A stretch of 64,000 nucleotides of DNA. Origin: Bacteroidaceae bacterium (lineage in GTDB: Bacteria > Bacteroidota > Bacteroidia > Bacteroidales > Bacteroidaceae). The translations under genes and the position numbers were made by a program. The stretch is taken from positions 24,590-88,589 of the forward strand of contig JAFZDY010000044.1 in the NCBI GenBank assembly GCA_017560945.1. Reading direction: 5' to 3'. The notes beneath the pieces are model-generated. The model had not been told where the DNA came from, searched no databases, and saw nothing but the letters and a program-made list of their open reading frames with translations. Each line of letters opens with the position of its first letter. Position 1 is the first letter of the stretch. This document shows, one piece after another, positions 3,950 to 57,024 of this stretch.

Positions 3950-4011
3950 AGTGCGGCATTACACTCTACCGTAGTGCCGCATTACACTATTGTACAGTGC
4001 CGCACTACACT
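3950..4011. repeat. Phased dyad array A (3 units, 23-bp period)
   Basis: Three 16-bp cores start at 3950, 3973 and 3996 (AGTGCSGCAYTACACT), exactly 23 bp apart. The outer copies also read as an inverted repeat: AGTGTAGTGCGGCA at the left is the complement of TGCCGCACTACACT at the right. The array ends about 50 bp upstream of the predicted transcript start of the HU-like gene, a suitable position for an operator. It belongs to the array family described in the findings. Nothing else is seen in 3818-4040. Confidence 0.7.
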
Positions 4012-4087
4012 TTTTATAAATTTCTATTGCTGGATGGAAAAATAGCTATATCTTTGCAGTAGTTTAACCAAACTTTGTTGATTGAAT

Positions 4088-4543
4088 ATGGGAAAAGAAA
4101 TTGGTGATATAGATAAGGCTTCGTTTTCGTTAGAAATTGTCCGTCAGCCTGTACCTTTTAAAGATGAAGAGGTGATGTATTCCCTCCGAGTGAGTAAGCA
4201 ATCCGTCATTTCGTTTGACAAGTTGGCTTATCGTGAAATGGCAGTGCGTGGTGTACGTCCTGCTATGGCTCGCATGGTGGCTGAGGAGTTGGGCGATGCC
4301 CTTCGCAAATGGCTTTCAGCCGGTCATGCTGTGAACATTGCTGGTGTGGGAACCTTGCGTCCTGTGATTAACAGCAAGGCACAAGCGTGTCCCTGTGATT
4401 GCTCGGTGGATGACATCCGTCAAGCCAAGCTCCGTTTCTACCCTTCGTTGGAAATGAAAGAGATGTTTCGCGATGGTCATTATCACATTCGCAATCGTGA
4501 GGAGTTTCTTGCGAAATGGGAGCGGGAATGTAAAAAGAAATAA
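4088..4543 (+). CDS. HU/IHF-like DNA-binding protein
   Basis: The 151-residue protein resembles the larger HU-like proteins of Bacteroidales. A variable N-terminal part (about 1-45) precedes an HU-type helical body and the GHAVNIAGVGTLRPV motif (about 79-93), which corresponds to the root of the HU beta-arm. A Cys101-Pro-Cys-Asp-Cys105 motif sits where the DNA-binding arm would be, which is unusual and suggests metal or redox sensitivity. The -7 box TATCTTTG (4049-4056) predicts transcription from about 4063. ATG 4088 is preferred over the in-frame TTG at 4082. Role: nucleoid architecture or local regulation, by inference. Array A lies just upstream of its promoter. Confidence 0.72.
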   Translation: MGKEIGDIDKASFSLEIVRQPVPFKDEEVMYSLRVSKQSVISFDKLAYREMAVRGVRPAMARMVAEELGDALRKWLSAGHAVNIAGVGTLRPVINSKAQACPCDCSVDDIRQAKLRFYPSLEMKEMFRDGHYHIRNREEFLAKWERECKKK

Positions 4544-4604
4544 ATACAATACACCCCACTATGCGGATTTTAGTAATAGGTTGCATAGTGGGGTGTGTTG
4601 TATT
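4543..4604. terminator. Bidirectional terminator between convergent genes
   Basis: A stem of about 20 bp (arms 4543-4564 and 4583-4604) is flanked by A-rich and T-rich ends. It sits between the HU-like gene and the oppositely oriented TonB receptor and would end transcripts from both. Confidence 0.85.
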
Positions 4605-4610
4605 CTTTCC

Positions 4611-7028
4611 TTAAAACTCGCACAATACCCGTACATTGATTTGACGCGTAGTGAGGTAGTTGGGGATGGCTGATTGGTGATTGTTGACATCGGTAATCCA
4701 ATAGTAGGAGTTGACGTTGTTGAAGTTGAAGAGGTTGAGTACGTCTGCTCCCAGCCATACGTTGCGGAAGTATTGGGCAAGGCCAGTGCGATACTCCCAC
4801 TCCTCGTTGTTCAAGAGGCGGTAGGACATTCCTAAATCCACTCGCTTGTAAGCAGGTGCACGGAAGATGTGCGACTCGCGTCCACTATGTGGCGGGCCAA
4901 AGGGGAGGCCGTCGGCATAGTTCATGCGAAGGTTCATCTTCCAACGGTCGCTACCTGGAAAATAATCGGTGAAGAAGAGTGAGAGGTTAACCCGTTGGTC
5001 AGTAGGGCGGGGAAGCCATTGGCCGTTAATCTTTTCCTCGGTCTTCATGATGGAGCAGGTTATCCAGGAGTCGGTGCCTGGTACGAATTCGCCAAAGAGT
5101 TTCAGATCGATACCTGTCGCATAGCCATGCGCCATGTTTTTCCCATAATAATTGATGCGCACGTTGTCCACATTATAGGGGACGAGGTTGCTCAAGAGTT
5201 TGTAATACACTTCAGCCGTGAACTTGAAGTTTCTGTCCATCATACGAAATTTGTAATCACCTGCGAGGACGAAGTGGACGGAGCGTTGCGACTTGATGTC
5301 GCGATTGAGTGTCACTGTTGTTACTCGGCCTATGGTCGTGGTGTCGCGAAACTCTTTGTAAAAAGGGGCTTGATAATACAATCCTGTGGCAAAGCGGAAG
5401 GTAAAGTCTTCGTTGAAGGCTGGTATCATTCCTATGGAGGCGCGAGGGCTGACAATCAACTCCTTATTCCAATCCCAATAGGCCGCACGAATACCCCCAT
5501 TCAGTGTCCAAAGGCCGATGGGTGAGGTCATGCGATAGGTGTCTTGCAGATAGAGGGCGTAGCGTAGGCTACTGATCTCTTGCTCGGGTAGGTTGAGGCT
5601 ATATATCAATTCAAGTTTGTCCGCCTGATGGGGAAGGGAGTATCCGGCCGAATCGCGCATTTCCCATTCGCGCGAACGCTCTTTGAAAGTCTCCTTGCGT
5701 ACCTCTGCACCCCATGCCAATCGGTGGCCGTTCAATAAGTCGTGGTGTCCCTTGAGTGCGTAGGTTTGCATGTGTCCGTTCAGGTAGTTGCGTGCATGCT
5801 CCATATAGGTGCCTACACCGAGGCTTTCGTTCTCACTCTCAGCATCCAACCAATATTCTCCAGTGATGTCGAAGGTTACCTCTTCCTTGGTGTGGAAGGC
5901 TGATGTCTGCAAACTGATGCTGTTGTGTGCATCGATGTGACGTGTCAAACTGAGTGCGCCAAACCACGTTTGGAAAAGGTCGCGCTCTTGTCCGTCGAAA
6001 TAGACTTTGAATGAACGTACATCGTTCATTGTGCCAAACTTCGTTTCTCTGTTTTCAGGGTTGAAGCGATACTTGTTTTGTGAAAAGTTTCCGATAAAAC
6101 CAAGCTCCCACCGTTTGTTGGGTGTCCAGTTGAGGCACGTTTGATAATCAGTAAAACTGGGGTTGTATTCTCCCTCGGTGTCCAAAGTGCCTACAAGAGC
6201 CTTGTTTGTCTTGTATCGGATGCTGTTCATCATGCTGAAGTGCTTGGTGGAGAATCCCACGTAGGCCCCTGCGCCAAGGAGGCTGGCTTGTGCCGTTGCT
6301 TCAAATTCCTTAGGCTTTTTGTAGGTAATGTCGAGTACTGAGGACATCTTGTCACCGTACTTTGCTTCGAATCCTCCTGAGGAGAAACCTATGCTCTCCA
6401 CCATATCGGGGTTGATGAAACTTAGCCCCTCCTGTTGCCCTGAACGGACGAGTAGGGGACGATAGATTTCTATGCCGTTTACATAGACACTATTTTCATC
6501 GAAACTACCTCCACGCACGTTGTATTGCGAACTCAGTTCGTTGTGGCTACTGACTCCTGCTTGTGTGGCTATCAGCTCTTCCACGGCATTGCCAGTGGCC
6601 GTAGGCATCAGTTTGGCCTGTTCACTCTGTATGCGCACGTTTTGTCCTGTCTGACGGTGCATCTCGCGGATGGTCACCCCTTCGAGTGCGTAGCCAGCGG
6701 CGGGTAGTGTCACGTTCAGAGTCACCTTGCCACGTGGATTGTACAAGGTGCGTTTGCGAGTTTCGTAACCTATCATGGAGAAGGTGATTGTCACAGTATC
6801 AGTACTTTGTACTGTTAGTGAGTATTTTCCTTCGAGGTCGCTCACCGTGCCAATCATCTGCCCCTCGACCTTCACAGAGGCTATCTCCAAGGGCTGATGC
6901 TCGTCGTCGGTAATGGTGCCGCTGATGACGACGGTTCGTTCGTCATCATTCATTGTTTGTGCCCAAACACCTACAATGTGTGTAAATATAAAGAGAAGTG
7001 CGAGTGTCGCACGCAATTTTATCTTCAT
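4611..7028 (-). CDS. TonB-dependent outer-membrane receptor
   Basis: The 805-residue protein has a signal peptide ending near VGVWA (about residue 23) and a carboxypeptidase-regulatory-like beta-sandwich (about 30-100). A plug domain (about 115-225, including YNVRGGSFDEN and YVNGIEIYRP) and a 22-strand-type barrel with the usual terminal aromatic residue (CEF) follow. It is clearly shorter than SusC proteins and has no SusD partner. It is therefore better read as an importer of a small ligand such as a metal chelate, cofactor or peptide than as a glycan transporter. The substrate cannot be read from the sequence. The start at 7028 is chosen because MKIKLRATLALL begins a proper signal peptide; an upstream in-frame ATG at 7046 would add six residues. 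Confidence 0.88.
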   Translation of the reverse strand: MKIKLRATLALLFIFTHIVGVWAQTMNDDERTVVISGTITDDEHQPLEIASVKVEGQMIGTVSDLEGKYSLTVQSTDTVTITFSMIGYETRKRTLYNPRGKVTLNVTLPAAGYALEGVTIREMHRQTGQNVRIQSEQAKLMPTATGNAVEELIATQAGVSSHNELSSQYNVRGGSFDENSVYVNGIEIYRPLLVRSGQQEGLSFINPDMVESIGFSSGGFEAKYGDKMSSVLDITYKKPKEFEATAQASLLGAGAYVGFSTKHFSMMNSIRYKTNKALVGTLDTEGEYNPSFTDYQTCLNWTPNKRWELGFIGNFSQNKYRFNPENRETKFGTMNDVRSFKVYFDGQERDLFQTWFGALSLTRHIDAHNSISLQTSAFHTKEEVTFDITGEYWLDAESENESLGVGTYMEHARNYLNGHMQTYALKGHHDLLNGHRLAWGAEVRKETFKERSREWEMRDSAGYSLPHQADKLELIYSLNLPEQEISSLRYALYLQDTYRMTSPIGLWTLNGGIRAAYWDWNKELIVSPRASIGMIPAFNEDFTFRFATGLYYQAPFYKEFRDTTTIGRVTTVTLNRDIKSQRSVHFVLAGDYKFRMMDRNFKFTAEVYYKLLSNLVPYNVDNVRINYYGKNMAHGYATGIDLKLFGEFVPGTDSWITCSIMKTEEKINGQWLPRPTDQRVNLSLFFTDYFPGSDRWKMNLRMNYADGLPFGPPHSGRESHIFRAPAYKRVDLGMSYRLLNNEEWEYRTGLAQYFRNVWLGADVLNLFNFNNVNSYYWITDVNNHQSAIPNYLTTRQINVRVLCEF

Positions 7029-7137
7029 AAGTCTGTAGTATATCAATGACTATTAACGGAGTTTTTCGCATAAACGTATATTCGTGGCCTAAAAAAAGGA
7101 TTTTATCCATTTCTCCTCTCGTTTTTTTGCTCTGCCT

Positions 7138-7192
7138 GAAAAATATTTTTCTCAGACATGGAAGAAAAATTTTCCGCGTCTGGAAGATTTTT
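7138..7192. repeat. Phased dyad array G1 (3 units, 22-23-bp period)
   Basis: Units start at 7138 (GAAAAATATTTTTC, a perfect palindrome), 7161 (GAAGAAAAATTTTC) and 7183 (GAAGATTTTTAATG). They lie between the divergent TonB receptor and beta-barrel genes. Variants of the same word recur at 34310-34366 and 56967-57024, so this word is shared by three loci. Confidence 0.65.
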
Positions 7193-7323
7193 AATGTTAA
7201 TTCTGAGGTAAGTTAGAGAGAAAAAGTGGGAATGATTTGTGTGTGATTATTCAAATTGGCTATGAAAAGAATCGATTTTACCCTTTTGTGAAGTTCGAAT
7301 ACCTATTATTGCAAAATAATGTA

Positions 7324-7331
7324 TATATTTG
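7324..7331 (+). promoter_or_regulatory. -7 element of the small beta-barrel gene
   Basis: TATATTTG matches TAnnTTTG and predicts a transcript start near 7338. That leaves a leader of about 75 nt and supports ATG 7414 as the start. Confidence 0.55.
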
Positions 7332-7413
7332 CACTGATTTAACAAAACGATGCACGACGAGAAAGTTTTCGAATCGTGTTTCTATGTTTAACTTAACAAA
7401 TATTAAATTAATT

Positions 7414-7947
7414 ATGAAAAAGATTTTTTTGACATTGATGGTGATGGTTGCATCTGTAGCTGCTAATGCTCAAATATGGGTAGGTGGTTCACTTGGTTTT
7501 TGGACAAATGGTGATGCTGAAGGGTCACAGACAAAGACTACTTTTGAGATTGCTCCTGAAGTAGGTTATGACCTCTCTGAAGATTGGTCTATCGCTCTTG
7601 GATTGGGTTATGCTTCTGCCAAGCCTGAGGATGGTGATGCTACAAATACATTGTATGTAACTCCTTATGCTCGTTATAACGTGTTGAAATCTGGTAATTT
7701 CAAACTCTTCTTGGATGGAGCTGTTGAAATTGGTTCTATAGACAATGGTGATAACAGCTACTCTGCATGGGGAGTTGGAATCAAACCCGGTGTGGCTTAT
7801 TCTTTGAATGAGAAATTCAGCCTTGTTGCTCACATGGGTTTCTTGGGATATCAGGATGCTGATGATGAACTCTCAGGACTGATTCAAAAGGGCTTTGGTT
7901 TCAACTTCTCTAACAATTTGTCATTCGGTGTTTACTATGCATTCTAA
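7414..7947 (+). CDS. Small outer-membrane beta-barrel protein
   Basis: The 177-residue protein has a clear signal peptide (MKKIFLTLMVMVASVAANA) and then alternating amphipathic strands rich in Gly, Tyr and Trp. It ends in GVYYAF with the terminal Phe expected for BAM-dependent insertion. It resembles the eight-stranded porin-like (outer-membrane beta-barrel) family. Likely role is a structural or small porin-like protein; no substrate can be inferred. The in-frame ATG at 7237 is upstream of the predicted promoter, so 7414 is used. Confidence 0.8.
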   Translation: MKKIFLTLMVMVASVAANAQIWVGGSLGFWTNGDAEGSQTKTTFEIAPEVGYDLSEDWSIALGLGYASAKPEDGDATNTLYVTPYARYNVLKSGNFKLFLDGAVEIGSIDNGDNSYSAWGVGIKPGVAYSLNEKFSLVAHMGFLGYQDADDELSGLIQKGFGFNFSNNLSFGVYYAF

Positions 7948-7967
7948 ACAATAGTATTATATGCGGA

Positions 7968-8008
7968 AAAGGCCGTACTTCATTGAGAAGTGCGGCCTTT
8001 CTTGTTTT
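7968..8008 (+). terminator. Terminator of the beta-barrel gene
   Basis: A 14-bp stem (arms 7968-7981 and 7987-8000) with a five-base loop is followed by a T-rich tract, about 20 bp after the stop. Confidence 0.88.
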
Positions 8009-8032
8009 CTTTCGGTGAAAAACCTTTAAAAC

Positions 8033-8064
8033 TTTGTCAGTGTGGTAGATTATTTCTATCTTTG
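8033..8064 (+). promoter_or_regulatory. Promoter of the nitroreductase gene
   Basis: TTTG at 8033-8036 and TATCTTTG at 8057-8064 with a 20-bp spacer. The predicted start is near 8071. Confidence 0.6.
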
Positions 8065-8108
8065 CATCTCTGCCTACGATTGGAATGGGAATAGAAAGAA
8101 AAAGATAT

Positions 8109-8636: not shown

Positions 8637-8716
8637 AAGGACTTACAAAGTCAGGTATTCCTTCTCTTCCCTCATGTCCCTCCTTAGGGAAGGTAGGAGG
8701 ATGGATTCTCTTACAT

Positions 8717-10048: not shown

Positions 10049-10075
10049 ATATAGTAATCAATAACTCTTGCTATT

Positions 10076-16355: not shown

Positions 16356-16413
16356 ATATATAACTTCGAGTGCAAAGTAATATATACTTCAAGTGGCAAC
16401 GAATATATACTTC
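16356..16413. repeat. Phased dyad array B (3 units, 23-bp period)
   Basis: ATATATAACTTC at 16356, AATATATACTTC at 16379 and AATATATACTTC at 16402 are exactly 23 bp apart. They lie in the 570-bp gap between tRNA-His and the GH10 gene. One further copy of the same word occurs at about 47901. The rest of this gap (16146-16660) is AT-rich with no gene. Confidence 0.65.
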
Positions 16414-34309: not shown

Positions 34310-34366
34310 CTGAATATTTTTTAGGCAACCCAAGAAAAATATTTGGATAACCTAAGAAAAATATAT
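34310..34366. repeat. Phased dyad array G3 (3 units, 22-bp period)
   Basis: Units start at 34310 (CTGAATATTTTTT), 34332 (AAGAAAAATATTT) and 34354 (AAGAAAAATATAT), exactly 22 bp apart, immediately after the GH115 stop codon. The word is shared with arrays G1 and G2. Confidence 0.65.
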
Positions 34367-39452: not shown

Positions 39453-39511
39453 ATCTTAGTATACTTTGTCATTTATCTTAATATACTTTCCATTTTATCC
39501 TAAGATACTTG
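39453..39511. repeat. Phased dyad array C (3 units, 22-23-bp period)
   Basis: ATCTTAGTATACTT at 39453, ATCTTAATATACTT at 39475 and ATCCTAAGATACTT at 39498. The core AGTATACT is a palindrome. Intergenic, about 150 bp upstream of the alcohol dehydrogenase start. Confidence 0.65.
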
Positions 39512-39603: not shown

Positions 39604-39691
39604 TTTGATGACCAAACTATAGAGGTTTGATGACCAAACTATATAGGTTTGATTGCCAAACTATATAGGTTTGGTAGCCTTAGTATAAAGG
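39604..39691. repeat. Phased dyad array D (4 units, exact 22-bp period)
   Basis: Tandem units begin at 39604, 39626, 39648 and 39670. The first two differ at one position and the fourth is degenerate. The core TTTGATGACCAAACTATA contains a GTTTG/CAAAC dyad. It lies about 90 bp from array C, in the same gap downstream of the DprA-like gene. Confidence 0.8.
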
Positions 39692-39912: not shown

Positions 39913-40308
39913 TTAATACATTTCATTAGCCAATTGCTCTACATAACGATTTCTTTTGTGAGCAGATACTTCAGATACTCTGGTGACTGATTCTTTTTCG
40001 TAGGAGATGATAAGGAGACGGCCTTGTTGCATCGCTTCTTCATACTGTTGAGGAAGCTGACGATACATTCCTCGAGCAAGGACGAGAATAATGCCACACT
40101 TACCTTGAAGAAGTACTTTTAGCACGTCGCGTTCCATCCGTGAGTGAAAACCGCTAATGATGGCGACATCGGTTTGTTTGCTCATTTGCAATGCCCAGTC
40201 CAGTGCAGGAAGCACCGACAATGTAGGTATCTTACGTGAAGCAAGATACCCAATCTTTCTCATGTTGAGCAATTCTTTGTTGCCGAGGTATGTAGGAGTA
40301 TTATTCAT
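39913..40308 (-). CDS. Small DprA-like (SLOG-fold) protein
   Basis: The 131-residue protein matches the middle of DprA/Smf. YLGNKELLNMRKIGYLASRK corresponds to the DprA GN..LL..pk.A.VGSR region, VAIISGF to the VSG turn, IILVLARGMYRQLPQQYEEA to the IAVLG.G.d..YP.e. segment and HKRNRYVEQL to the RNRiI.gL motif. The ligand-binding GIDxxAH part is replaced (SRMERDVLKVLL) and the C-terminal third of DprA is missing. It overlaps the methyltransferase gene by 8 bp, so translation is probably coupled. I infer a nucleotide- or DNA-sensing accessory in the operon rather than a transformation protein. Confidence 0.6.
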   Translation of the reverse strand: MNNTPTYLGNKELLNMRKIGYLASRKIPTLSVLPALDWALQMSKQTDVAIISGFHSRMERDVLKVLLQGKCGIILVLARGMYRQLPQQYEEAMQQGRLLIISYEKESVTRVSEVSAHKRNRYVEQLANEMY

Positions 40309-43300
40309 TCAGTTCGTCTCCCATACGATATTTGATATCGTAGTTGATGATAAAATCTAGTTCTTCTTCGGTAAAGCCATAGTGCTCGGCTAAGAGTTTG
40401 TCTATTTCATCGATAAACCTTTTAGATCGTTTAGGATAATATTCATCGTAAACAACATTTCTGCCAGTTGACTTATAATATGTGTTTTTTGTAAACTTGT
40501 TCGCTTCATAATCAGCAAATAATATTTTCCCTTTCTCTGAGATAGCAGAATCTTTAGCTGCGGAAATTGGAACAGGGAAATTATCAATAAAGCCCTTCGT
40601 AAGATTCCGACAATCGGTATATGAAATGTAGTTCCAGTAAAACAGCGAAGAGGATATTATTGACCCAATAGAAGTATTGTCATATAATTCATCTATTTTT
40701 AATTCCTTTTCTGCTTTTACATCTTCCAAGACTCCATCAATATATGTTATACTTTTTTGATTTTTTATCAATAGAAAATATCCTCCACCTGCTGCTCTGA
40801 AATATACAGAAGAATTAGAGAATGAATTTCCATAATAGTTTGCTACACAGTTTTTGCAAGAGTGAATTTTCTTGTTTATCAAACATTCCGTTTGAATAGA
40901 AAATTTAGGAATAATAAAAGAGGGCGCAAGCGATGTTACATTTACATAACACAAATTATTAAAGAGAGAACCTCGGCACTCTGTATACCAACGATTGTAT
41001 TTCGTAGCAAAGATATTAAAAGATGTTTTCTTCTCACTTTTACTTGCAATAAATATTGATGCTCGCAAATGCTCGATAACTTCAAACAAACGGCCAGGTC
41101 TATCGTCGAAATTAGCAAATAATAGAAGTGACGAATTCTCTTTAAGTAGTTTAATAACTTTCTCCATTCGCTTTGAACAAGTTATAGCAACAGGAACAAT
41201 GAAGCTAAACTTACCTTTTGATTGGCTAATTTTCAAACTTCTCTCCGTACAACAACCATACAAATTCCCGCATTGTGCAGATTCTAAAGAATCGAATCTA
41301 TATTGTACATCTTTACTAGGATACTCCACATACGGCGGGTTACCAATTATAACATCAAAACCGCCATTCCCTTTTATGATTTGATAAAACTCCGCTAGCC
41401 AGTGGAATGGTTGATGTGATTTAAGCCACTTTTCATACGCAAGATGTGTTGTCGCATGCATACGGTGATTAAGAGTATCATTAAGTGAAGATAATCGCTG
41501 TTTCAACTCCCATTTCGCTTGTTTGAAAGCAAGCATGTCATCTTCTTGGTTTAACTGTACATGCTTGAAGGTGTCATATGCAAGAGACACAAGTTGCATC
41601 TCAGATTCTACTTTCTCCTTGAACACTGCATTTGCAAATATATCTCCCCAAGTAAGGTCACGATTAAGTTCCTCTTCCGTAGCATATCCTACCAATGTGT
41701 TTCCACAACGGATATTGAAGTCAATATCAGGCAATGGGTCAAGACCAAGGTTATCGGCACGCTTGTCTACTTCCACCACAGCAACCATCTTCAAGAATAG
41801 TCGGAGTTTGGCAATTTCGGTAGCCTCTACCATAATGTCTACGCCGTAAAGATTGCGCAAGATGATGCTCTTGAATATAAAGTACTGTATGTTGCTTCGA
41901 TATCTATTGGATATCTCTGCCAACTCATCCTTAAACAATAAGGGATTCTGTGCATTGAACTCTTGCATACGCTCTATACACACTTCGTAGAGCGGTTCGA
42001 GGATATTCATTGCAGCAAAGAGGAACGCGCCACTACCACATGTAGGGTCAAGGATAGTTACATTTTGTAATGCGTGATAGAAATGACGGACAAAGAGGTG
42101 GTCATCGGCCGTACGCAATAGGTCATAGACAAATGAACGTATATCCAGGTTATAAGTAATGAAATCGTTTATCTGGGTTATCTCTCCATCGCGTATCTTT
42201 TGCAGTATGCTTTCACAACGCTGTAAACGCTCAACCGTTTCGCGCCATATCTCAGTAGGTAGGGCAAACTTCTCTGCGGTTTTAGTGTTCCATGCTGAGC
42301 GACGTTCCAAGAGATTAGGCTTCGTGGTGTCGATGCCGACTGCAACATCTTCGGGTATCAGTTGTTGCCAGTCTTCGTTATACCCTTTCTTTACGGCATC
42401 GTAGATATAGCGGTCTCTACTGCTTCGTAACGTTTGCCATACAAATCCCTCAGGGGTGAATGCTTTGGATGACTTCTCGGCAGTCTTGTCCATCAAGAAA
42501 GGAATAATACAATTCTTGCCGATATATTCCGTGATGTCTTCTTTGGTGTAATAAGCACCCATTTGTGCACGGTCGTTGATATATTGCTCAAAGATGTAGC
42601 CAAGCACATCGGGGTTGATATCTTTCCCGCTTGCTGTAATGCGTGTATCAAGATGCCAACGCCATGTGTCGAAGAAGTTGAAGAGACGAATAAATGCTTC
42701 GTCGCTAATATCTATGTCAGCATAGTCGCGCTCCAATTGGTGCTCATCGAACATACCACCATTGAGATAGGGAATACGTCCATACTTGCGCTCAAAATCA
42801 CCATTGTGCAGTGGCGCATTGAGTCCATCGTGAAAAAGGTCAGAAAGGAAACCACGATAAAATGATTGAAAGAAGCGGTCCTCTCCCTGTTCCTTGCGTA
42901 CCCACTGTAGTTTGTGTTGCAGATAATCGGGGTCGCCATTGAGGAAGCCCTTCTTTTGGATAAAATAGCAAAACATCAAGCGGTTAAGCATGACCGACGT
43001 ATACCATTGTTTGTTGCGATTGTCTTTGGATACGATATGGTCATCAATGCCCGTAATGAAGTCAGCAAAGGCTTTATGTTCTTTCTTGAAACCAGCATAA
43101 AAATCTTTCGTAATCTTCTCGGAATTGACAGCAAAAGAACCTTGTATACGTTCCTTAACATCGACGATAGTGGTTGTTTCGCCCAACTCGAAAGAGAGCG
43201 CATCAATCTTTGAAAAGAGAAAATCTGCCTTATCTGCAGTCTCATACTCAATTGTGACCACATCACGTTTCTCGACAGTCTTGATGGGAGCCATCCATTG

Positions 43301-43591
43301 GTGATGTTGCGAATCGGGGATATAGAATATGCAGATGTAGTCGTTGGCATTGCGTCGTAAACGGTAGTCTATCTTCTTACAAGTAGTTGTAGTAGGAATG
43401 CTATTTACTGGGCACGATATAATCTGAAAACCATTACGCTCGGCAATCGTTGTCATACAATATTCTATGCCTTCAATTTCGATAGGCTGTATATCGGCTT
43501 GACCACGAAAACGGTTCCAACCCATTTCGGTTATGAAGAGACCTTTGAAATCCTCCTCCTTTATATATTGATTGAATGTGCTTCTTCTCAT
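40301..43591 (-). CDS. Eco57I-type N6-adenine DNA methyltransferase (PglX-like)
   Basis: The 1096-residue protein has a long N-terminal helical region with endonuclease-like or partner-binding character (about 1-330). The SAM-binding motif is Asp515-PTCGSG (about 515-521) and the catalytic motif is Asn751-PPY (about 751-754). A C-terminal target-recognition region (about 780-1050) follows. It would methylate adenine at a specific site to mark host DNA. It starts 14 bp after the helicase gene and overlaps the DprA-like gene. The size and motif order resemble BREX PglX and type IIG enzymes, but no other BREX gene is present. Confidence 0.88.
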   Translation of the reverse strand: MRRSTFNQYIKEEDFKGLFITEMGWNRFRGQADIQPIEIEGIEYCMTTIAERNGFQIISCPVNSIPTTTTCKKIDYRLRRNANDYICIFYIPDSQHHQWMAPIKTVEKRDVVTIEYETADKADFLFSKIDALSFELGETTTIVDVKERIQGSFAVNSEKITKDFYAGFKKEHKAFADFITGIDDHIVSKDNRNKQWYTSVMLNRLMFCYFIQKKGFLNGDPDYLQHKLQWVRKEQGEDRFFQSFYRGFLSDLFHDGLNAPLHNGDFERKYGRIPYLNGGMFDEHQLERDYADIDISDEAFIRLFNFFDTWRWHLDTRITASGKDINPDVLGYIFEQYINDRAQMGAYYTKEDITEYIGKNCIIPFLMDKTAEKSSKAFTPEGFVWQTLRSSRDRYIYDAVKKGYNEDWQQLIPEDVAVGIDTTKPNLLERRSAWNTKTAEKFALPTEIWRETVERLQRCESILQKIRDGEITQINDFITYNLDIRSFVYDLLRTADDHLFVRHFYHALQNVTILDPTCGSGAFLFAAMNILEPLYEVCIERMQEFNAQNPLLFKDELAEISNRYRSNIQYFIFKSIILRNLYGVDIMVEATEIAKLRLFLKMVAVVEVDKRADNLGLDPLPDIDFNIRCGNTLVGYATEEELNRDLTWGDIFANAVFKEKVESEMQLVSLAYDTFKHVQLNQEDDMLAFKQAKWELKQRLSSLNDTLNHRMHATTHLAYEKWLKSHQPFHWLAEFYQIIKGNGGFDVIIGNPPYVEYPSKDVQYRFDSLESAQCGNLYGCCTERSLKISQSKGKFSFIVPVAITCSKRMEKVIKLLKENSSLLLFANFDDRPGRLFEVIEHLRASIFIASKSEKKTSFNIFATKYNRWYTECRGSLFNNLCYVNVTSLAPSFIIPKFSIQTECLINKKIHSCKNCVANYYGNSFSNSSVYFRAAGGGYFLLIKNQKSITYIDGVLEDVKAEKELKIDELYDNTSIGSIISSSLFYWNYISYTDCRNLTKGFIDNFPVPISAAKDSAISEKGKILFADYEANKFTKNTYYKSTGRNVVYDEYYPKRSKRFIDEIDKLLAEHYGFTEEELDFIINYDIKYRMGDELNE

Positions 43592-43605
43592 AATGGTGTG
43601 TTTGT

Positions 43606-46600
43606 TTATGGTTGGTATTTAAGTCCCATCGAGCAGATGATTGACGGGTCTTTGTGAATGCTCTTGTCTTCTTCGATACGGCATAGACTGAAGTTCTTGC
43701 GCATTTCAAGTACGCACTCTACGATTTCATCACTGGTGCTATTGCGCAACATACGCCCAAGTGTAAACTTGGCGCTTTCGAGTAACGGATAATTGTAGAT
43801 GTCGTCAATGGCAAGTTTTAACAGGTCTTTATTCTCTTGCGAGAAGAAGAGGTTGGGCGGATTCTGATAGTAATTTTCAAGTAGATTGCTGATACGATAG
43901 CGTGTGCTAAATCTGTTTCCTAAGATTCCACCGATGCTTGTTGTTTCATTGTTAATGTTATCAATAGCCTTAGATACAAGGTCGTGATGATTGTCGTGTG
44001 GTTCGATGTTGCGTGCATTTGCATCACAGGCCATAGCATTAAGAATACGTTTCTGCGATTGACTGATGATATTACCGTTGGTATCTAACCATGTGAGCAC
44101 ATCAAAATCGTTATGAGTCTTGGCATAGGTGATGACGCCGTTTTGTATCAATTCGCCAGTCTCTTTGGTCGCATAAATAACATTGCTTAATGAAGGGATG
44201 ATTTCCTTTAATCGTGGATTGGCGTCGATTGCATTCTTCCAAATCTGATAGGCTTGTGACGAGAGGTCTACATCGCTGTCGTCATCATCATCAAGCGAGC
44301 CACTCTTCTCGTTAAACATGTCACGAAGGTTCTTTTCGTTACCTTCAAAGAAAACCTCATCACTACCTACGATATTGGCATTCTCATTAATACGGTCGTT
44401 GAGTCGACCACGAAGATTGATGATTTCCTCTACACCATCGGCAGGGAAGAACGAATAGCAATAGATTTGCTCGGCCTCTTGACCGATACGGTCAACACGA
44501 CCAGCTCTCTGAATCAAACGAATAATCGCCCAAGGTAGGTCAAAGTTTGTGATAACGTGTGAATCTTGTAGGTTTTGACCCTCACTTAGTACGTCGGTAG
44601 CAATCATTATGCGGAACTGCTCTTCTAGTGTATAGTCCTTATCATTACTCTTTGGAGAGAAATGTTCAACCAAGTCTGTTGGGTTCTTACTACCTCCAGT
44701 GGCACAAGCGATGTTCTTGAATCCTCGACGTTTAAGTTGATTGAATATATAGTTTGCAGTGTCGGAGAATTGGGTGAACACAATAACCTTATCAGCCTTG
44801 TGTGTTTCATTGAGCAATGTTTCCAACTCGTTGAGTTTAGGGTCTGTTGCAGGGTTCCAATCACCACACAAAGCTATCATGTTAAGCAATATTTCGCAAT
44901 CTTTACGTAGTTGTTGCTTGAGAGTACGTTTGAAATACTTGGAGTCAATCCATGCACAGTTGTTCTTTGCCGTGATGATATTATAATACTCTTTGGCCTT
45001 GCGCATATACACATCCATCTCTTTTGGGAAGGTTATCAACTCCTCGTCCTCAATCACACGCTCGGGGTCAAGTGCATCGCCAAAGATATTCTCGTTCATG
45101 TCGGCATCTTCCATATACTCTTCAGGGAAGGTATTCTCATCGCCAATAGGTAAAGGAAGTTTATTATCAATAGCATAGATGAATACTGCATTGCGTAAGA
45201 TGTGCCTATATATCGTAAGCAGAAAGGCAAAACCACTGCTATCAATTCGTTTGAAGAATGTGCTTTTGCAAAATCCCATCATGCGTTGGCCTGCACGAGA
45301 CAGATTTTCCACTATCAGTTTTTCATGTATTTTGATACCAATAGCTTTTGTTTCATCATAGAAATGGATAAGTCCATAACGAGGCAATTTAAGTTCCTCC
45401 ATTAGGTTTATCATTTCGGCTGAATATAGACGACTATACTGGTCTCCCAATTCAGTCTTGAACTTAATTGCACGCGGCAAACGTTCTGGGAAATAAGAGC
45501 GACTACCATCAGGGAATTGCAAGTATTTTCGTTGAGTAATATTGTCGGTCTTAGCATAGTTATCCTTGATGAATGTACGTGTACGACGTACAAGGAAAAG
45601 TTTCATTAGTTCATTCCAATCATCAGCAAATGGGCTCTTCTCGAAAGCTTTGATAGAACGCATGTGTATGTCACTATGTAGGCGTTGAAATTCGCGCTCG
45701 CCACCCAATGAACGGATATATTCTTCGGGGCGAATGCCAAGATCTTGGTCTTCACTGATAAATAGGCGTAGCTGATTACTTAAATCTGAGAAGTCTTTGT
45801 TGTAAGGTGTTGCCGTAAGTAGCAAAACCTTGCTGTCTTGGTGTTCTATAAGATTTCGGATATTCTGATAGCGCTTACCGTTTGAGTTACGTAAGTTGTG
45901 ACTTTCATCAACGATTATCAATCGATAGAATCTTGCAGATTCAATGTCGATAGGTTTAGACATTGACATGATATCGGCCTTCAGGTCGTATTTCGCAACA
46001 TATTTGCGCCACATATCCTGTAGATTGGCCGGACATATAATCAGCGTACTGCTGGCAAAGGTCATCTCATAGATTTTTGCAATGGCACAGGCTGTAATCG
46101 TCTTACCCAATCCCACGACATCGCCAATCATTGCTCCGTTGCGCTTTTCGTTATTGAGATTCTTGGCAGCAATCTTTACGGCTGTTTGTTGGAAGTCAAA
46201 CAACTCACGTTGAAATTCGGGAGAAAGTGAAAACTCTTTAATGCCATTGCGTGCGTCTTGGCTTAGGTGATAAGCTGTTTTCAAGTATATGTAATAAGGT
46301 GGAATATCCTTCTCACCAGCCCAACTTTCGTCGATTATCTTTATCAAGTCATCAGTGATGTCTAAGCAAAAACGGTCGTTCCAACGATTATCAAACCAAT
46401 CTGCCAATTTCTGAACACTATCGCTGTCTGCAAATTCAGCATTCAGTTCGCCCTGTTTTGTCAAACCTGAGTAGGTAAGATTACTGCTACCCATAATAGC
46501 TTGTATCTTATTGAAATGATCCTGTGGCCGATGAGCCAGATAGAGTTTAGCGTGCAGGGGCTCTTTTAAATAAAGTTTAACCGTTACCTTTCCTTCCTTC

Positions 46601-46992
46601 ATTTGGGTAGACAAACGACGTAACGTCCATTCATCTACAGCAGAAGGAACACCAAGCAAAAGTTGTTTTCGGAAGTCTCGTACAATCTGCATCCTGCATT
46701 GCATTGCATATTCAGCATCAGGCTGATTGTCATGACGGGAATAAAGTCCTCTGATAAGTTCTTCATCTGGACGATGCATACCGATGAGCAAACGACAGAC
46801 ACGCAATTGACGGTCGTCATTCTCATACACATAGTCACCTGGGAGGGAATCTATTTGATTCACTATCAGATTCCATCCTCTCAAATTGAAATAGCCGACG
46901 CAAAAGTCTACACGATTAACTCCTACGTTGCTAATAATCCCTTGCAAACCTTCGGTAAACTTGATTTCAAGGTTGTCATAGATTCTTGCCAT
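43606..46992 (-). CDS. PLD-nuclease/SNF2-like helicase fusion
   Basis: The protein (1128 residues from this start) begins with a phospholipase-D-type nuclease domain carrying His147-x-Lys149 (PLHAKLYLAH) and GSSNLTYSGL at about 168-177. A superfamily-2 helicase follows with Walker A GDVVGLGKT (Lys at about 297), box II DESH (about 362-365), TATPYN and motif VI RAGRVDRIGQ (about 831). A large acidic and helical C-terminal part completes it. Such fusions translocate on and cut unmodified DNA in restriction-like defence. The start at 46992 (MARIYDNLEIKF) suits the domain; an in-frame ATG at 47031 would add thirteen residues. First gene of the operon. Confidence 0.85.
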   Translation of the reverse strand: MARIYDNLEIKFTEGLQGIISNVGVNRVDFCVGYFNLRGWNLIVNQIDSLPGDYVYENDDRQLRVCRLLIGMHRPDEELIRGLYSRHDNQPDAEYAMQCRMQIVRDFRKQLLLGVPSAVDEWTLRRLSTQMKEGKVTVKLYLKEPLHAKLYLAHRPQDHFNKIQAIMGSSNLTYSGLTKQGELNAEFADSDSVQKLADWFDNRWNDRFCLDITDDLIKIIDESWAGEKDIPPYYIYLKTAYHLSQDARNGIKEFSLSPEFQRELFDFQQTAVKIAAKNLNNEKRNGAMIGDVVGLGKTITACAIAKIYEMTFASSTLIICPANLQDMWRKYVAKYDLKADIMSMSKPIDIESARFYRLIIVDESHNLRNSNGKRYQNIRNLIEHQDSKVLLLTATPYNKDFSDLSNQLRLFISEDQDLGIRPEEYIRSLGGEREFQRLHSDIHMRSIKAFEKSPFADDWNELMKLFLVRRTRTFIKDNYAKTDNITQRKYLQFPDGSRSYFPERLPRAIKFKTELGDQYSRLYSAEMINLMEELKLPRYGLIHFYDETKAIGIKIHEKLIVENLSRAGQRMMGFCKSTFFKRIDSSGFAFLLTIYRHILRNAVFIYAIDNKLPLPIGDENTFPEEYMEDADMNENIFGDALDPERVIEDEELITFPKEMDVYMRKAKEYYNIITAKNNCAWIDSKYFKRTLKQQLRKDCEILLNMIALCGDWNPATDPKLNELETLLNETHKADKVIVFTQFSDTANYIFNQLKRRGFKNIACATGGSKNPTDLVEHFSPKSNDKDYTLEEQFRIMIATDVLSEGQNLQDSHVITNFDLPWAIIRLIQRAGRVDRIGQEAEQIYCYSFFPADGVEEIINLRGRLNDRINENANIVGSDEVFFEGNEKNLRDMFNEKSGSLDDDDDSDVDLSSQAYQIWKNAIDANPRLKEIIPSLSNVIYATKETGELIQNGVITYAKTHNDFDVLTWLDTNGNIISQSQKRILNAMACDANARNIEPHDNHHDLVSKAIDNINNETTSIGGILGNRFSTRYRISNLLENYYQNPPNLFFSQENKDLLKLAIDDIYNYPLLESAKFTLGRMLRNSTSDEIVECVLEMRKNFSLCRIEEDKSIHKDPSIICSMGLKYQP

Positions 46993-47031
46993 ATAACTGT
47001 ACTGTTTAAAAGTACGTTTTAGGCTATACAT

Positions 47032-47308: not shown

Positions 47309-47643
47309 AAGGATTAATTATGAATTCTAAATTATGAATTATGAATAATTTCACAGAATATGTTGAAAAACAGAAAATGAGATACCATTTAAGGTTTAAG
47401 ATGTAGGGTGTAGAGTTTAGGGTTTAAGGATTAAGTGTTGGACTATGAGACTACAGAGATGGACTTTGAAACTGTATGTTCCTTCTGTTGATACAATTAA
47501 GATGTGTAAAGTTTTTTAGTAAGACTTTCAAGAATGTGTCTATATATCACGTTGGTGCACAAATAGCTCGATACGCAAACAAATGGCACCAAACGTACTT
47601 TATCATATTTGATATTCAATAGGTTAAGCATAGCGAAAAATCA

Positions 47644-47760
47644 CTTAAGCGTAAGTTCAGTATCACTTAAGCGTAAGTTCAGTATCGCTTAAGCGTTAGT
47701 AACTTTTCTCTTAAGCGTTATCAAATTATGCTTAAGCGTTGTCTGACGAGACTTAAGGAT
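47644..47760. repeat. Phased dyad array E (6 units, 21-22-bp period)
   Basis: CTTAAGCGT starts at 47644, 47666, 47688, 47710 and 47731, with a sixth, diverged copy (CTTAAGGAT) at 47752. Spacings are 22, 22, 22, 21 and 21. CTTAAG is a palindrome. It is the longest such array in the window, about 340 bp upstream of the predicted helicase-operon promoter. The rest of the gap (47310-47640 and 47761-47990) has no gene; one copy of the array-B word (AATATATACTTC) lies at about 47901. Confidence 0.8.
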
Positions 47761-47992
47761 GATTTATTTTGGTAAGGATTTTTCAGAAATGCAAGAAAGG
47801 TTTGAGGGGTAAACACACATTATTAGATTTGCTTTGAAGGATTGCATTCTTCAAGCCTGAATATTAGTAATCCTTCCATCGATATGAACCATTCAAAAAA
47901 GTAATATATACTTCATCGGCCAAAGAAGCTATCTTGCCTTGGCATAGAAGTAGTACTTACTTTGATTATACAAAGACATATAAGAATAAAGA

Positions 47993-51589: not shown

Positions 51590-51625
51590 GTTAGATTGTT
51601 TTTTTAATAATTAAATTTTTCAGCG

Positions 51626-51633
51626 CAAAAGTA
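51626..51633 (-). promoter_or_regulatory. -7 element of the minus-strand GH43 operon
   Basis: The minus strand reads TACTTTTG, matching TAnnTTTG. The predicted start is near 51619, about 30 nt upstream of the start codon. Confidence 0.55.
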
Positions 51634-51748
51634 TATAAAATTATTCACAATAACGATAAAAAAAAGAAAAAAATACATTTTTCATCTAAATGTAACGTAA
51701 TTTAAACCATCTGCAACATATTCATAACTATTTCGATGAAAGAATAAG

Positions 51749-51945: not shown

Positions 51946-52041
51946 TTCAATTAGTGGGTAAGGTATACTATATATGGGTAAAAATTGTGTATATGAAAAT
52001 GTTTTGCGACAAAAAACAAAGTCTATTTGAGTTATTAGTTG

Positions 52042-52049
52042 TATTTTTG
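52042..52049 (+). promoter_or_regulatory. -7 element of the second GH97 gene
   Basis: TATTTTTG matches TAnnTTTG. The predicted start near 52056 leaves a leader of about 40 nt. Confidence 0.55.
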
Positions 52050-52093
52050 CAAAATATAAAGTATAAATTTATTAATTTAAACATATAAATGAA

Positions 52094-54112: not shown

Positions 54113-54305
54113 TTATTCTAAGTTTTATAATTTAAGTACAAAGGAAAAATAATTCAAAGGTAGGGAAGATGGAGGTCGATAGCTTTTTAACTATGATGTT
54201 TACTTCTTGAAACTTGTGGTTGAATCTCTTGGCCTCTATCTATCCAAAGAATCAAATATATATGCTTTGATTTCCTCTTTCGAGTATATCCTAAAAAGAA
54301 AGTTT

Positions 54306-56783
54306 ATGAAAAAAATAATCTTATCTCTCATTGCTCTGTTGTGTCTCACAGGAGTACAAGCGGCAGAGCAATTTGTGAGTTTTGTAAAGCAAACTGATGC
54401 GGTGTCCATTACTAATGCTACCATCAGTTATAGTGAGAACGAGTACGAAGGTGTAAAGATTGCCATCCAAAACTTGCAGACGGATATGAAGAACGTCTTG
54501 GGTAAGGCTCCTTCTTTGATAGAGAAAGATGGGGAAAAGGCAACCATCATCGTAGGTACTATTGGAAAGAGTAAGGCCATCGATGCTTTGAAGTTAGCAG
54601 ACTTGAAAGGTAAGCGAGAGAAGTTTATCATTACCACTACTCCTGAAGGTCAAGTTGTGATTGCTGGTAGTGACAAGCGTGGTACTATCTATGGTGTGTA
54701 CGAACTCAGTCGTCAGTTGGGTGTGTCACCTTGGTATTGGTGGGCCGATGTTCCTGTAGAGAAGCAGAGTGAGGCCTATGTATTGAAGGGTACTTATACT
54801 GATGGTGAACCTGCCGTAGAGTTTCGTGGTATCTTCCTCAACGATGAGGCTCCCTGCTTGACTTCATGGGTGAAGAATACTTGGGGAACTGACTATGGTG
54901 ATCATCGTTTCTATGCTCGCGTGTTCGAACTCATCCTTCGTTTGCGTGGTAATATGTTGTGGCCTGCTATGTGGGGATGGGCTTTCTATGCTGACGATCC
55001 TGAAAATGGACCTACTGCCGACAAGATGGGTGTTATCATTGGCACATCTCACCACGAACCTATGGCTCGTAACCATCAAGAGTGGGCACGTGATCGTAGT
55101 GGAAATGGTGAATGGAACTATCAAACTAATCAAAAAAGACTTGACGAATTTTTCCGCGAAGGTATTGAGCGCATGAAAGGTACCGAGGATATTGTTACCA
55201 TTGGTATGCGCGGTGATGGTGACGAAGCCATGAGTGCTGAGGCTGATACTGAACTCCTTCAACGCATTGTGAAGAATCAGCGTAAGATCATTGAAAATGT
55301 GACAAAACAACCCGCTAAGAAGACTACTCAAGTGTGGGCGCTTTACAAGGAAGTGCTCGAGTACTATGATAAAGGAATGCGTGTGCCCGATGATGTTATT
55401 ATGCTCCTTTGCGATGACAACTGGGGTAATGTGCGCCGTGTACCCACTACTGAGAAGGAATTGAAGCATCCTGGTGGATGGGGACTCTATTATCACGTTG
55501 ACTATGTGGGTGCTCCTCGTAACTCTAAGTGGCTCAATGTGACTCCTGTGCAAAATATGTGGGAACAACTCACTCTTGCCTATGATCGCGGTATTCAGCG
55601 TATGTGGATTCTCAATGTAGGTGACCTTAAACCTATGGAATATCCCATCACACTTTTCCTCGATATGGCTTGGAGTCCTAAGACTGTAACCGCCGATGTG
55701 GTAGAGACTCACGTACTTCCTTTCTGCATCGAACAGTTTGGTAAGGAACAGGCAGCTGAGGCGGCTCGTATTCTTAACCTTATTAGTAAACTCAATGGAC
55801 GTTGTACACCAGAAATGCTCGATGCTCGCACTTATAATGTGAATACAGGTGAGTGGAAGCAGGTGGTGGACGAGTATATGCATCTCGAGACAGAGGCATT
55901 GCGTCAGTATCTCACCCTTGAACCTCAGTATCGCGATGCTTATCAGCAACTCATCCTTTTCCCTGTACAAGCCATGGCAAACCTTCATGAAATGTACTAT
56001 GCTCATGCAATGAATCAGAAGCTCTTCAAGGAGGGTAATCCTGACGCAAATATGTGGGCCGATCGTGTGGCTGATGCTTTCCGTCGTGACTCAATCCTTT
56101 GTGCCGCTTATAACCATGACATTGCCGGTGGAAAATGGAATGGTATGATGACTCAGAAGCATATTGGTTATCGTAGTTGGAATGACAATTTTCCTCGTGA
56201 TGTGATGCCTCGCGTTCAACGCATTGAGAATCCTACTCCTGGTGGTTATACATTCCAAATGAACAATGGTGTGGTGAGTATGGAAGCTGAGCATTACTTC
56301 GAAGCTAAGGCTACTGATAATACTGAGTGGACGCTCATTCCTCATATGGGACGTACACGTAGCGCTATGGCACTGATGCCTTATACCCAATCTACTGAAG
56401 GTGCATCGCTTACCTACCGTTGGAATGGAAAGGTACAAGGTGAAGTGGAAGTGCATGTGATTGTTAAATCTACTCTTGATTTCCTTAATAAGGGTGGTAT
56501 GACCTTTGGTGTATCAATCGATGGAGGTGAACCGAAGGAGGTTAATTTTAACCACAATCTGAATGAAAAGCCTGAAAATATTTACAGTGTATATTATCCT
56601 ACTTCTGCGGGTCGTGTAGTAGATACTCGTGTAAAAATTTCGGTAGATTCTTCTTCTGAGACTCACACACTTACTATTACTCCCAATGACCCTGCCATCG
56701 TGTTTGAAAAGATTGTTATTGATGCAGGTGGTTACGAACGCTCATACCTCTTTATGGATGAGTCAGAAGTGACTAAGCAATGA
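54306..56783 (+). CDS. GH115 xylan alpha-glucuronidase (second copy)
   Basis: The 825-residue secreted protein has a signal peptide (about 1-19), the GH115 N-terminal domain, and a barrel with SPWYWWADVP, EFRGIFLNDEAP, IGTSHHEPM, GMRGDGDEAM and LNVGDLKPMEYPITLFLDMAW. The C-terminal domain starts near EAEHYFEAKA. It removes (methyl)glucuronic acid from xylan. Unlike the first copy it has an ordinary signal peptide, so the pair may split work between secreted or periplasmic and surface locations. ATG 54306 is preferred because it begins the signal peptide; the longer in-frame start adds 33 unrelated residues. Confidence 0.92.
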   Translation: MKKIILSLIALLCLTGVQAAEQFVSFVKQTDAVSITNATISYSENEYEGVKIAIQNLQTDMKNVLGKAPSLIEKDGEKATIIVGTIGKSKAIDALKLADLKGKREKFIITTTPEGQVVIAGSDKRGTIYGVYELSRQLGVSPWYWWADVPVEKQSEAYVLKGTYTDGEPAVEFRGIFLNDEAPCLTSWVKNTWGTDYGDHRFYARVFELILRLRGNMLWPAMWGWAFYADDPENGPTADKMGVIIGTSHHEPMARNHQEWARDRSGNGEWNYQTNQKRLDEFFREGIERMKGTEDIVTIGMRGDGDEAMSAEADTELLQRIVKNQRKIIENVTKQPAKKTTQVWALYKEVLEYYDKGMRVPDDVIMLLCDDNWGNVRRVPTTEKELKHPGGWGLYYHVDYVGAPRNSKWLNVTPVQNMWEQLTLAYDRGIQRMWILNVGDLKPMEYPITLFLDMAWSPKTVTADVVETHVLPFCIEQFGKEQAAEAARILNLISKLNGRCTPEMLDARTYNVNTGEWKQVVDEYMHLETEALRQYLTLEPQYRDAYQQLILFPVQAMANLHEMYYAHAMNQKLFKEGNPDANMWADRVADAFRRDSILCAAYNHDIAGGKWNGMMTQKHIGYRSWNDNFPRDVMPRVQRIENPTPGGYTFQMNNGVVSMEAEHYFEAKATDNTEWTLIPHMGRTRSAMALMPYTQSTEGASLTYRWNGKVQGEVEVHVIVKSTLDFLNKGGMTFGVSIDGGEPKEVNFNHNLNEKPENIYSVYYPTSAGRVVDTRVKISVDSSSETHTLTITPNDPAIVFEKIVIDAGGYERSYLFMDESEVTKQ

Positions 56784-56791
56784 TGATTGAA

Positions 56792-56817
56792 CGGAGTTCG
56801 CTTGCTTAAGAACTCCG
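56792..56817 (+). promoter_or_regulatory. Hairpin just after the GH115 stop
   Basis: CGGAGTTC (56792-56799) pairs perfectly with GAACTCCG (56810-56817), with no T-run. It precedes a true terminator and probably protects the transcript 3' end. Confidence 0.5.
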
Positions 56818-56836
56818 AATATAAATAGGTCTCACC

Positions 56837-56882
56837 TGTCGCCTATCTCAGCCTTTAAGGTTGATGATAGGCGGCTTTTTTA
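56837..56882 (+). terminator. Terminator of the GH97-GH115 unit
   Basis: GTCGCCTATCT (56837-56847) pairs with the GATAGGCGGC region (56865-56874), with an inner CCTttaAGG loop, then a run of T. Confidence 0.82.
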
Positions 56883-56966
56883 TCTTTATATATCAATGTA
56901 TTGACTTATAGGGCTTGTAAGGATAATTCTTTGGCTAATTTACGAAGATGCATGAAGGATTAATTA

Positions 56967-57024
56967 TAGAATATTTATTCTCTACCTGAGAAAAATATTT
57001 CCCTAACGGAAGAAAAATATTTCC
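56967..57024. repeat. Phased dyad array G2 (2-3 units, 22-bp period)
   Basis: AGAAAAATATTTCC occurs at 56989 and again, identical, at 57011. A degenerate unit (AGAATATTTATTC) lies about 22 bp before. It lies about 130 bp upstream of the predicted GH5 transcript start. Same word as G1 and G3. Confidence 0.65.

Follow-up and report, generated by a model that had tools for sequence, protein, structure and literature searches.

Intergenic arrays in the window

What are the short rows of repeated words, spaced by about two helical turns, that recur between the genes of a Bacteroidaceae genome, and what might read them? Eight such arrays are present in the window, by which we mean the whole 64,000-nucleotide stretch that was analysed. 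When re-printed from the sequence, their coordinates, units and spacing agreed with the preliminary description, and all of them lie outside genes once ORFs of at least 90 aa are masked greedily, the array at 34310 starting 4 bp past a gene end. Below, G-numbers denote genomes (G000 being that of the window), L-numbers loci and a C-number after a genome label a contig; the repeated words are designated by letters.

3950..4011, + strand: word C array, three units at 23 bp, palindrome AGTGTAGTGCSGCACTACACT, ending 38 bp before the TAnnTTTG −7 box (at 4049) of an HU-HIG gene
4088..4543, + strand: HU-HIG protein (PF18291, HU domain; Pfam profile match), candidate binder and autoregulator
7138..7192, no strand: word D array, GAAAAATATTTTTC, between divergent genes
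16356..16413, no strand: word J array, 23 bp; a GH10 xylanase/feruloyl esterase gene follows after about 300 bp
34310..34366, no strand: word D array, following a GH115 gene and preceding a GH98 gene
39453..39511, no strand: word E array, with an Fe-alcohol dehydrogenase gene downstream
39604..39691, no strand: word B array, GTTTGATGACCAAACTATATAG
47314..47965, no strand: dispersed non-coding repeat with the word A array and J-like units, homologous to other places in G000
47644..47760, no strand: word A array, CGCTTAAGCG, six units at 21-22 bp
56967..57024, no strand: word D array, in front of a GH5 gene

Period and symmetry

Intergenic self-match clusters in the window numbered 5 at period 21, 8 at 22 and 6 at 23, compared with 0-6 at the other periods from 8 to 60 (6 at 14 and 4 at 44, with simple repeats left in). 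A larger sample of 429 kb that includes the window (about 18% of G000; 53,407 intergenic bp) contained 46 clusters at period 22, 11 at 21, 12 at 23 and 26 at 44, versus 1.2, 1.4, 1.2 and 1.0 in first-order Markov resamples; periods 14 and 32 gave 11 and 9. Thus, the excess over randomised intergenic sequence, on which the preliminary description had staked its family of phased arrays, is present. In 80 named loci, mostly of ruminant-gut Prevotella type (103,785 intergenic bp), we counted 83 clusters at 22, 30 at 21, 14 at 23 and 41 at 44, the corresponding controls being 1.3, 3.0, 2.7 and 1.7. These counts rule out chance as the source of period 22. Codon periodicity is ruled out as well, since the coding DNA of the 429-kb sample peaks at multiples of 3 and has 3 clusters at period 22.

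Every array had initially been credited with a dyad-symmetric core. This turned out to hold for many, with significance falling short in the rest: at p<0.05, units were more symmetric than their column-shuffled versions in 29 of the 40 arrays that precede HU-HIG genes and in 45 of the 91 others. Conservation of the units drops with distance from the dyad, leaving conserved cores and variable spacers.

Glycoside hydrolase genes follow several of the window arrays, and LytTR sites are typically direct repeats near 21-22 bp. Both points would fit polysaccharide loci controlled by AraC/HTCS or LytTR regulators through direct-repeat operators; however, many units are palindromic and the words are spread over unrelated genes, which makes this explanation very improbable.

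Comparison with known elements

The elements had been thought to match nothing named. A search of the window against Rfam returned only a tRNA and 16S, ruling out a described Rfam element at the arrays. Across 13 loci, CRISPR-DR49 exceeded its cut-off by 0.4 bit at L053, next to the word A array and not within it. Another candidate was BrickBuilt of Porphyromonas gingivalis, a set of intergenic 23-nt imperfect direct repeats dispersed in 19 copies, many of which have a leader and a tail segment, and with unit numbers that vary between strains; TIRs were reported, and the element was interpreted as a MITE with a trapped minisatellite (PMC4596501, available part). BrickBuilt itself is ruled out: its 23-nt consensus AGAYCATARTATCCTCTCRTRTG has no match in the window at up to three mismatches, and exact matches are absent from 485 loci. 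The arrays resemble BrickBuilt in being intergenic, dispersed, near 23 bp and variable in unit number, whereas BrickBuilt has a single word, and the available part of PMC4596501 describes neither a dyad nor a link to an HU protein. A caveat to novelty comes from the same part of that source, where 22-, 23- and 41-nt repeats are noted in P. gingivalis strain W83. The available part of PMC5771137 names BrickBuilt and other repeats and has no 22-bp family. Literature searches on 22-23 bp repeats in Porphyromonas or Prevotella and on HU with operators found nothing further of use.

Similar geometry is seen in plasmid iterons of Rep proteins, which are phased, cooperatively bound direct repeats near 22 bp. 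In contrast to iterons, the arrays are dispersed over the genome, palindromic and made of many words, and the scanned window proteins that flank arrays include no Rep-type family. Autoregulatory operators of antitoxins and ParB-type clusters likewise have private palindromic sites at the promoter of the binder itself; unlike these, the arrays combine a fixed 22-23 bp geometry over many words with dispersed copies.

Arrays upstream of HU-HIG genes

The protein downstream of the word C array belongs to PF18291 (46 bits versus a curated cut-off of 26.2; E 6.6e-12). Against NCBIfam TIGR01201 (HU_rel) it scores 37.1 bits, under the cut-off of 68.6; L403 and L262, among seven proteins scanned, exceed that cut-off. 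In Pfam, the HU domain of HU-HIG proteins is joined to a wHTH, Ig or Gly-rich part. The window protein is itself a member of this family. A profile of our alignment A1 reaches E. coli HU weakly (E 0.04). Genomes carry 7-22 PF18291 matches in the genus (15 genomes) and 1-30 in the family (61 genomes), counts that include ordinary HU, since the model also has matches in E. coli and eight other reference genomes. Our literature searches found no array or target DNA sequence reported for HU-HIG; in the available part of PMC10434189, an HU family gene appears in an iron data table only.

Arrays of at least 45 bp lie upstream of 38 of 102 HU-HIG genes versus 40 of 1010 other genes (p=6e-22) in all data, array-selected loci being left out. 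The discovery set gave 21/51 versus 26/571 (p=6e-13), and a second set, chosen from PF18291 match tables roughly by score before any upstream DNA was inspected, gave 10/33 versus the same 26/571 (p=5.5e-6) or versus 4/50 neighbours (p=0.01), two of those four neighbour arrays being an HU-HIG array viewed from a divergent gene. All of these p-values are optimistic because related genes and pairs are not independent. The 60 regions of the second set comprised 33 with usable upstream DNA, 9 HU ORFs with <100 bp upstream and 18 without an HU ORF by HMM. HU-HIG ORFs were called with an HMM built from the fetched loci rather than the Pfam model and may include ordinary HU; the other genes came from mixed genomes.

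The enrichment is confined to the upstream side, none being seen downstream of HU-HIG genes, and to the periods in question, with none at control periods 17-19, 25-27 and 29-31. Control genes with sigma-70 region 2 had arrays in 0/19 cases at ≥45 bp and in 2/19 at ≥34 bp; the small AraC sample (n=5) gave 1/5 and 2/5, respectively. Taking in both groups the box nearest 20 bp after the array, and with some ORF starts miscalled, the median distance from array end to −7 box was 48 bp at HU-HIG genes (15 of 40 arrays with a box, 9 of these 15 at 34-60 bp) versus 138 bp for other arrays (24 of 54 with a box). Among six HU-HIG genes on named plasmid records, one had an array near its promoter, and a two-unit 23-bp repeat was found 295 bp upstream at 1 of the 6. 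The far higher frequency of arrays before HU-HIG genes than before others points to an extensive and unstudied repertoire of DNA addresses for HU-like proteins.

Word and period versus protein clade

The 22 versus 23 bp geometry follows the HU-HIG clade even where the words differ. Among 105 pairs of HU-HIG proteins at least 35% identical with different words, 85% share the period, a value reached in none of 5000 permutations; the nearest relative carrying another word has the same period in 36 of 50 cases. The C-terminal type (Gly-rich versus the rest) was not significant as a cause of period (p=0.12).

The words themselves follow the proteins less uniformly. Orthologues 74-81% identical can bear unrelated promoter words (L157/L329, L191/L192, L167/L180 and L160/L260). 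Word C stands beside all five HU-HIG orthologues, including that of the window, and at further loci in 7 of 15 genomes; in G007 and G008 (completeness 76 and 80%), word C arrays are present and no HU-HIG orthologue was found. Of 15 genomes, 6 have word H arrays, and these same 6 have the L157 HU-HIG orthologue (≥63% identity, our cut); only two of them, G000 and G002, have word H at the promoter of the orthologue itself. The HU-HIG-linked words C and H recur elsewhere in G000 and its relatives, and one HU-HIG-linked array each in G010 and G054 recurs elsewhere in its own genome.

Word sharing at ≥16/18 bases was seen in 4 of 272 pairs within genomes versus 0 of 1456 between genomes, in a count from which masking had removed the C and H copies known in G000; the four pairs come from two HU-HIG-linked arrays, one about 440 bp from the gene. 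At the looser cut of ≥14/18, there was no clear excess (8/272 versus 35/1456). One of two pairs at exactly 15/18, L156 with L016:785, consists by eye of different words. Strict patterns placed none of the words A, B, E, F, G, I, J and K beside any of 164 HU-HIG ORFs (some of them duplicates) and gave one weak pair at 20-bp spacing for word D; the same patterns overlook G and D arrays that are known. Array density has no simple relation to PF18291 copy number (9 strong arrays with 6 matches; 1 with 17).

These data bear on the possibility that the arrays are operators of other regulators, with HU-HIG promoters merely a favoured target. The lack of an HU-HIG partner for most window words under strict patterns, the unrelated words of close HU-HIG relatives and the arrays before housekeeping genes all speak for it. 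Yet such operators would not be expected to have a period that tracks the HU-HIG clade across different words, nor does the shared distribution of word H and one HU-HIG orthologue favour them, and sigma-factor genes lack long arrays. We regard this alternative as rather unlikely, though a serious one.

Dispersal and copying of array words

Each locus had seemed at first to have a word largely of its own. This was not borne out: words form dispersed families that recur across the genome. In the 429-kb sample, inspection by eye found six places with word A, four with B and two with C (6, 3 and 2 by strict patterns), words E and B occur together again at G000:C53:22015-22213, and part of the word A array is matched at about 20 other places in G000. 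Some words recur inside dispersed non-coding repeats of 0.3-0.7 kb. The block at 47314..47965 is homologous over 300-680 bp to nine other places in G000 (69-76% identity), element borders here being blast limits only. Word C occurs at many different places in seven species; three of its 15 loci (G003:C37, G004:C57 and G007:C171) are one orthologous place, besides three HU-HIG loci.

The suggestion that a copying process makes phased repeats thus holds for some arrays, as orthologous loci differ in unit number (2 versus 4) and whole non-coding blocks have been duplicated. Between L028 and L021, mismatches number 1/126 in the array versus 5/126 in the right flank, too little for claiming selection; the left flank (20 mismatches) was left out, as it is probably shifted by a unit insertion.

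Might the arrays then, like BrickBuilt in its published interpretation, be passive repeats of minisatellite or MITE-like type, arising by slippage and transposition with no dedicated binder? Variable unit number, dispersed blocks with flanks, an HU-HIG-plus-array cassette present in 15 copies in G045 and the repeats of 22 and 23 nt noted in P. gingivalis (PMC4596501, available part) would all fit. However, slippage gives no reason for a limit of 21-23 bp across many unrelated words, and leaves unexplained both the dyads with conserved cores and variable spacers and the upstream-only enrichment at one gene family; a single word C at many different places in seven species also argues against it. 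We therefore consider passive repeats improbable.

A proposed role for HU-HIG proteins

The best reading, to which we assign a probability of roughly 0.55, is that the arrays are helically phased palindromic sites for HU-HIG dimers of diversified specificity, autoregulatory at their own promoters. Each array would offer a homodimeric protein several palindromic sites in line, and their spacing of two helical turns would place dimers on one DNA face, allowing cooperative binding. A substantial class of arrays may be bound by HU-HIG proteins, an expanded HU-fold family, in which many genes would keep an array upstream of their own promoter for autoregulation. Arrays of the same word dispersed in intergenic DNA could then serve as regulatory or nucleoid-organising addresses. 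The 22 or 23 bp geometry would be a property of the protein clade, while the word diversifies fast. Judged from sequence, direct binding, cooperativity and autoregulation are plausible, as is their extension to words lacking an HU-HIG partner. The initial proposal of cooperative sites for a dimeric protein family with diversified specificity fits these data, with HU-HIG as the candidate family in view of its upstream enrichment and the period-clade link; what did not survive is the locus-specific word.

A bolder and more tentative scenario, possible though not likely, is that Bacteroidales harbour a PRDM9-like arms race. Many HU-fold paralogues per genome would each read its own fast-changing palindrome in 22- or 23-bp arrays, and the arrays would spread intergenically, partly as mobile protein-plus-array cassettes such as that of G045, leading to sequence-addressed chromosome domains or silencing of neighbouring DNA.

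PF18291 proteins are numerous, yet we found no paper on the DNA that HU-HIG members read. If the arrays are indeed HU-HIG sites, every such gene has a predicted target, making specificity, its evolution and regulons directly testable. Intergenic repeats of gut Bacteroidales that otherwise lack an explanation would then be accounted for, and so might the repeats of 22 and 23 nt in P. gingivalis.

Period of the arrays

All eight arrays of the preliminary description were recovered in the window and matched what had been described there. The period excess over controls that it led one to expect was also found: in 429 kb of the genome including the window (G000; a draft of 2.35 Mb in 57 contigs, 82% complete), intergenic self-matches (11/13 bases, simple repeats removed) at 22 bp numbered 46 versus 1.2 in resampled sequence, with shoulders at 21 and 23 bp and a harmonic at 44, and the coding DNA of this sample gave 3 at period 22. 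The 22-bp peak recurs in 80 named loci (83 versus 1.3 in the control). Eight further genomes of the family were sampled at 100 kb each.

Observed versus control at periods 21-23 bp, per 100 kb
G054: 23 versus 2.0
G045: 11 versus 0.4
G010: 10 versus 0.5
G018: 8 versus 1.3
G020: 6 versus 1.7
G037: 5 versus 1.6
G058: 5 versus 0.9
G033: 0 versus 1.2

Since the excess in G037 is stronger at control periods 17-20 and 24-27 (15 versus 4.1) than at 21-23, the peak is not general.

The window alcohol dehydrogenase shares 92-94% identity with proteins from four Bacteroidaceae genomes (sheep rectum, goat caecum) versus 76-84% with the remaining 76 fetched loci, mostly from ruminant-gut Prevotella-type genomes. 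Elsewhere in the window, a 39-bp tandem repeat (3020-3151, 3.4 copies) lies within an ORF (2867-3754) matching no Pfam or NCBIfam family, and 39913-47031 holds a candidate anti-phage operon, every NCBIfam match falling below its curated cut-off:
DprA-like fragment
Eco57I/PglX-type methylase, 1096 aa
PLD-plus-SNF2 helicase, 1141 aa, resembling phospholipase D-like domain-containing anti-phage protein

Units, words and dispersed repeats

In the units a palindromic core is conserved and the spacer varies more: in arrays at HU-HIG genes, the majority-base fraction falls from 0.87-0.91 at positions up to 6 bp from the dyad to 0.74 at positions 10-12 bp away. Dyad symmetry exceeds that of shuffled units in 29/40 HU-HIG arrays and 45/91 others. 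The proposal of a different word at most loci stands only in part: words do differ, but they group into families, word A (CGCTTAAGCG) occupying six places in the 429-kb sample. Units of words A, B, E and J co-occur as mosaics within dispersed non-coding repeats. At the orthologous locus of a near relative, a word A array shows 1 difference in 126 bases, and its neighbouring array has two versus four units in the two genomes.

Several further observations concern these repeats. Within the dispersed word A repeat, J-like units AATATATACTTC, GAAGCTATCTT and GAAGTAGTACTTAC (window 47897-47965) follow at ~22-bp steps with the same half-sites and different centres. Two CRISPR-DR49 Rfam matches, 0.4 bit above cut-off, lie near a word A array (locus L053:1854-1977). 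A non-coding region of ~1.2 kb (L028:1400-2620), without a match in Rfam, contains arrays of word A and of J-like units together with a long inverted repeat (GACGTGGG...CCCACGTC) that follows a -7-like box; it is perhaps an RNA gene. Short arrays of other words adjoin word C arrays at five loci (L284, L287, L290, L291, L294), so array families cluster.

Association with HU-HIG genes

HU-HIG is already a Pfam family (PF18291), and a 2017 study reportedly named novel HU clades. The window array at 3950-4011 ends 38 bp upstream of the -7 box (4049) of a HU-HIG gene. Five of the ten PF18291 matches in G000 have such an array upstream. Across many genomes, arrays of at least 45 bp precede 21/51 HU-HIG genes versus 26/571 others, and scanning periods 12-35 at these 51 genes gave clear enrichment only at 22 and 23. 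A second HU-HIG set, chosen from hit tables before upstream DNA was inspected, gave 10/33; pooled, with loci fetched by array queries left out, the counts are 38/102 versus 40/1010. Enrichment was absent downstream of HU-HIG genes and in three control period ranges at these genes, and among control families arrays occur at 0/19 sigma-factor and 1/5 AraC genes.

Do HU-HIG proteins read the arrays?

In favour, where a HU-HIG array has a recognisable -7 box (15/40), it ends 34-60 bp upstream of the box in 9/15. Among 105 HU-HIG pairs at least 35% identical but with unlike words, 85% have their period in common (0/5000 permutations). All 5/5 orthologues of the window HU-HIG have a word C array directly upstream, and seven genomes carry further copies at other places. 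The 15 word C loci comprise three at HU-HIG genes, three that represent one orthologous place, and nine that share at most weak neighbour matches (35-49%). The same 6/15 genomes have both the word H arrays and the HU-HIG orthologue that goes with them, but only in G000 and G002 does the word lie at the orthologue's own promoter. G010 and G054 each have one HU-HIG-linked word that recurs elsewhere in the genome. Parabacteroides distasonis has a relative, at 58% identity, with a 23-bp array of its own. Plasmid records hold five other HU-HIG genes, of which one is preceded at a distance of 295 bp by a two-unit 23-bp repeat and the remaining four by none. G045 has a dispersed block in 15 copies (L382-L395, L397), 86-92% identical to one copy, that contains a HU-HIG gene of 137 aa followed on its 3' side, by eye, by an array of five 22-bp units. 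In these copies inverted AAACTTTCACCTATGATCG forms the boundaries, again by eye, and further dispersed repeats (CCCTTAGGGTTGGTCT) surround them.

Against this, array density does not track PF18291 copy number, the PF18291 model also matches ordinary HU (9/14 reference genomes), and words A, B, E, F, G, I, J and K adjoin 0/164 HU-HIG ORFs under strict patterns. A looser cut gave word sharing in 8/272 comparisons within and 35/1456 between genomes, with no clear excess within. Word similarity increases only above ~50% protein identity, and even relatives at 74-81% can have unrelated words. All HU-HIG/array links are correlations.

Repeats of 22 and 23 nt have been reported in Porphyromonas gingivalis, where BrickBuilt is interpreted as a MITE with a minisatellite (excerpt of PMC4596501). 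Among the papers listed in our searches of the openly (CC-)licensed PMC literature, none linked 22-/23-nt repeats with HU-HIG or described a single geometry shared by many words.

The likeliest reading of each array is a row of sites for dimers, set in phase. Once bound, an array at a HU-HIG promoter could activate its own gene or, alternatively, wrap the DNA and repress it; dispersed arrays would be additional targets. Because words change fast and geometry is stable, our results suggest that protein and site co-evolve, though the sites may instead turn over under a different regulator.
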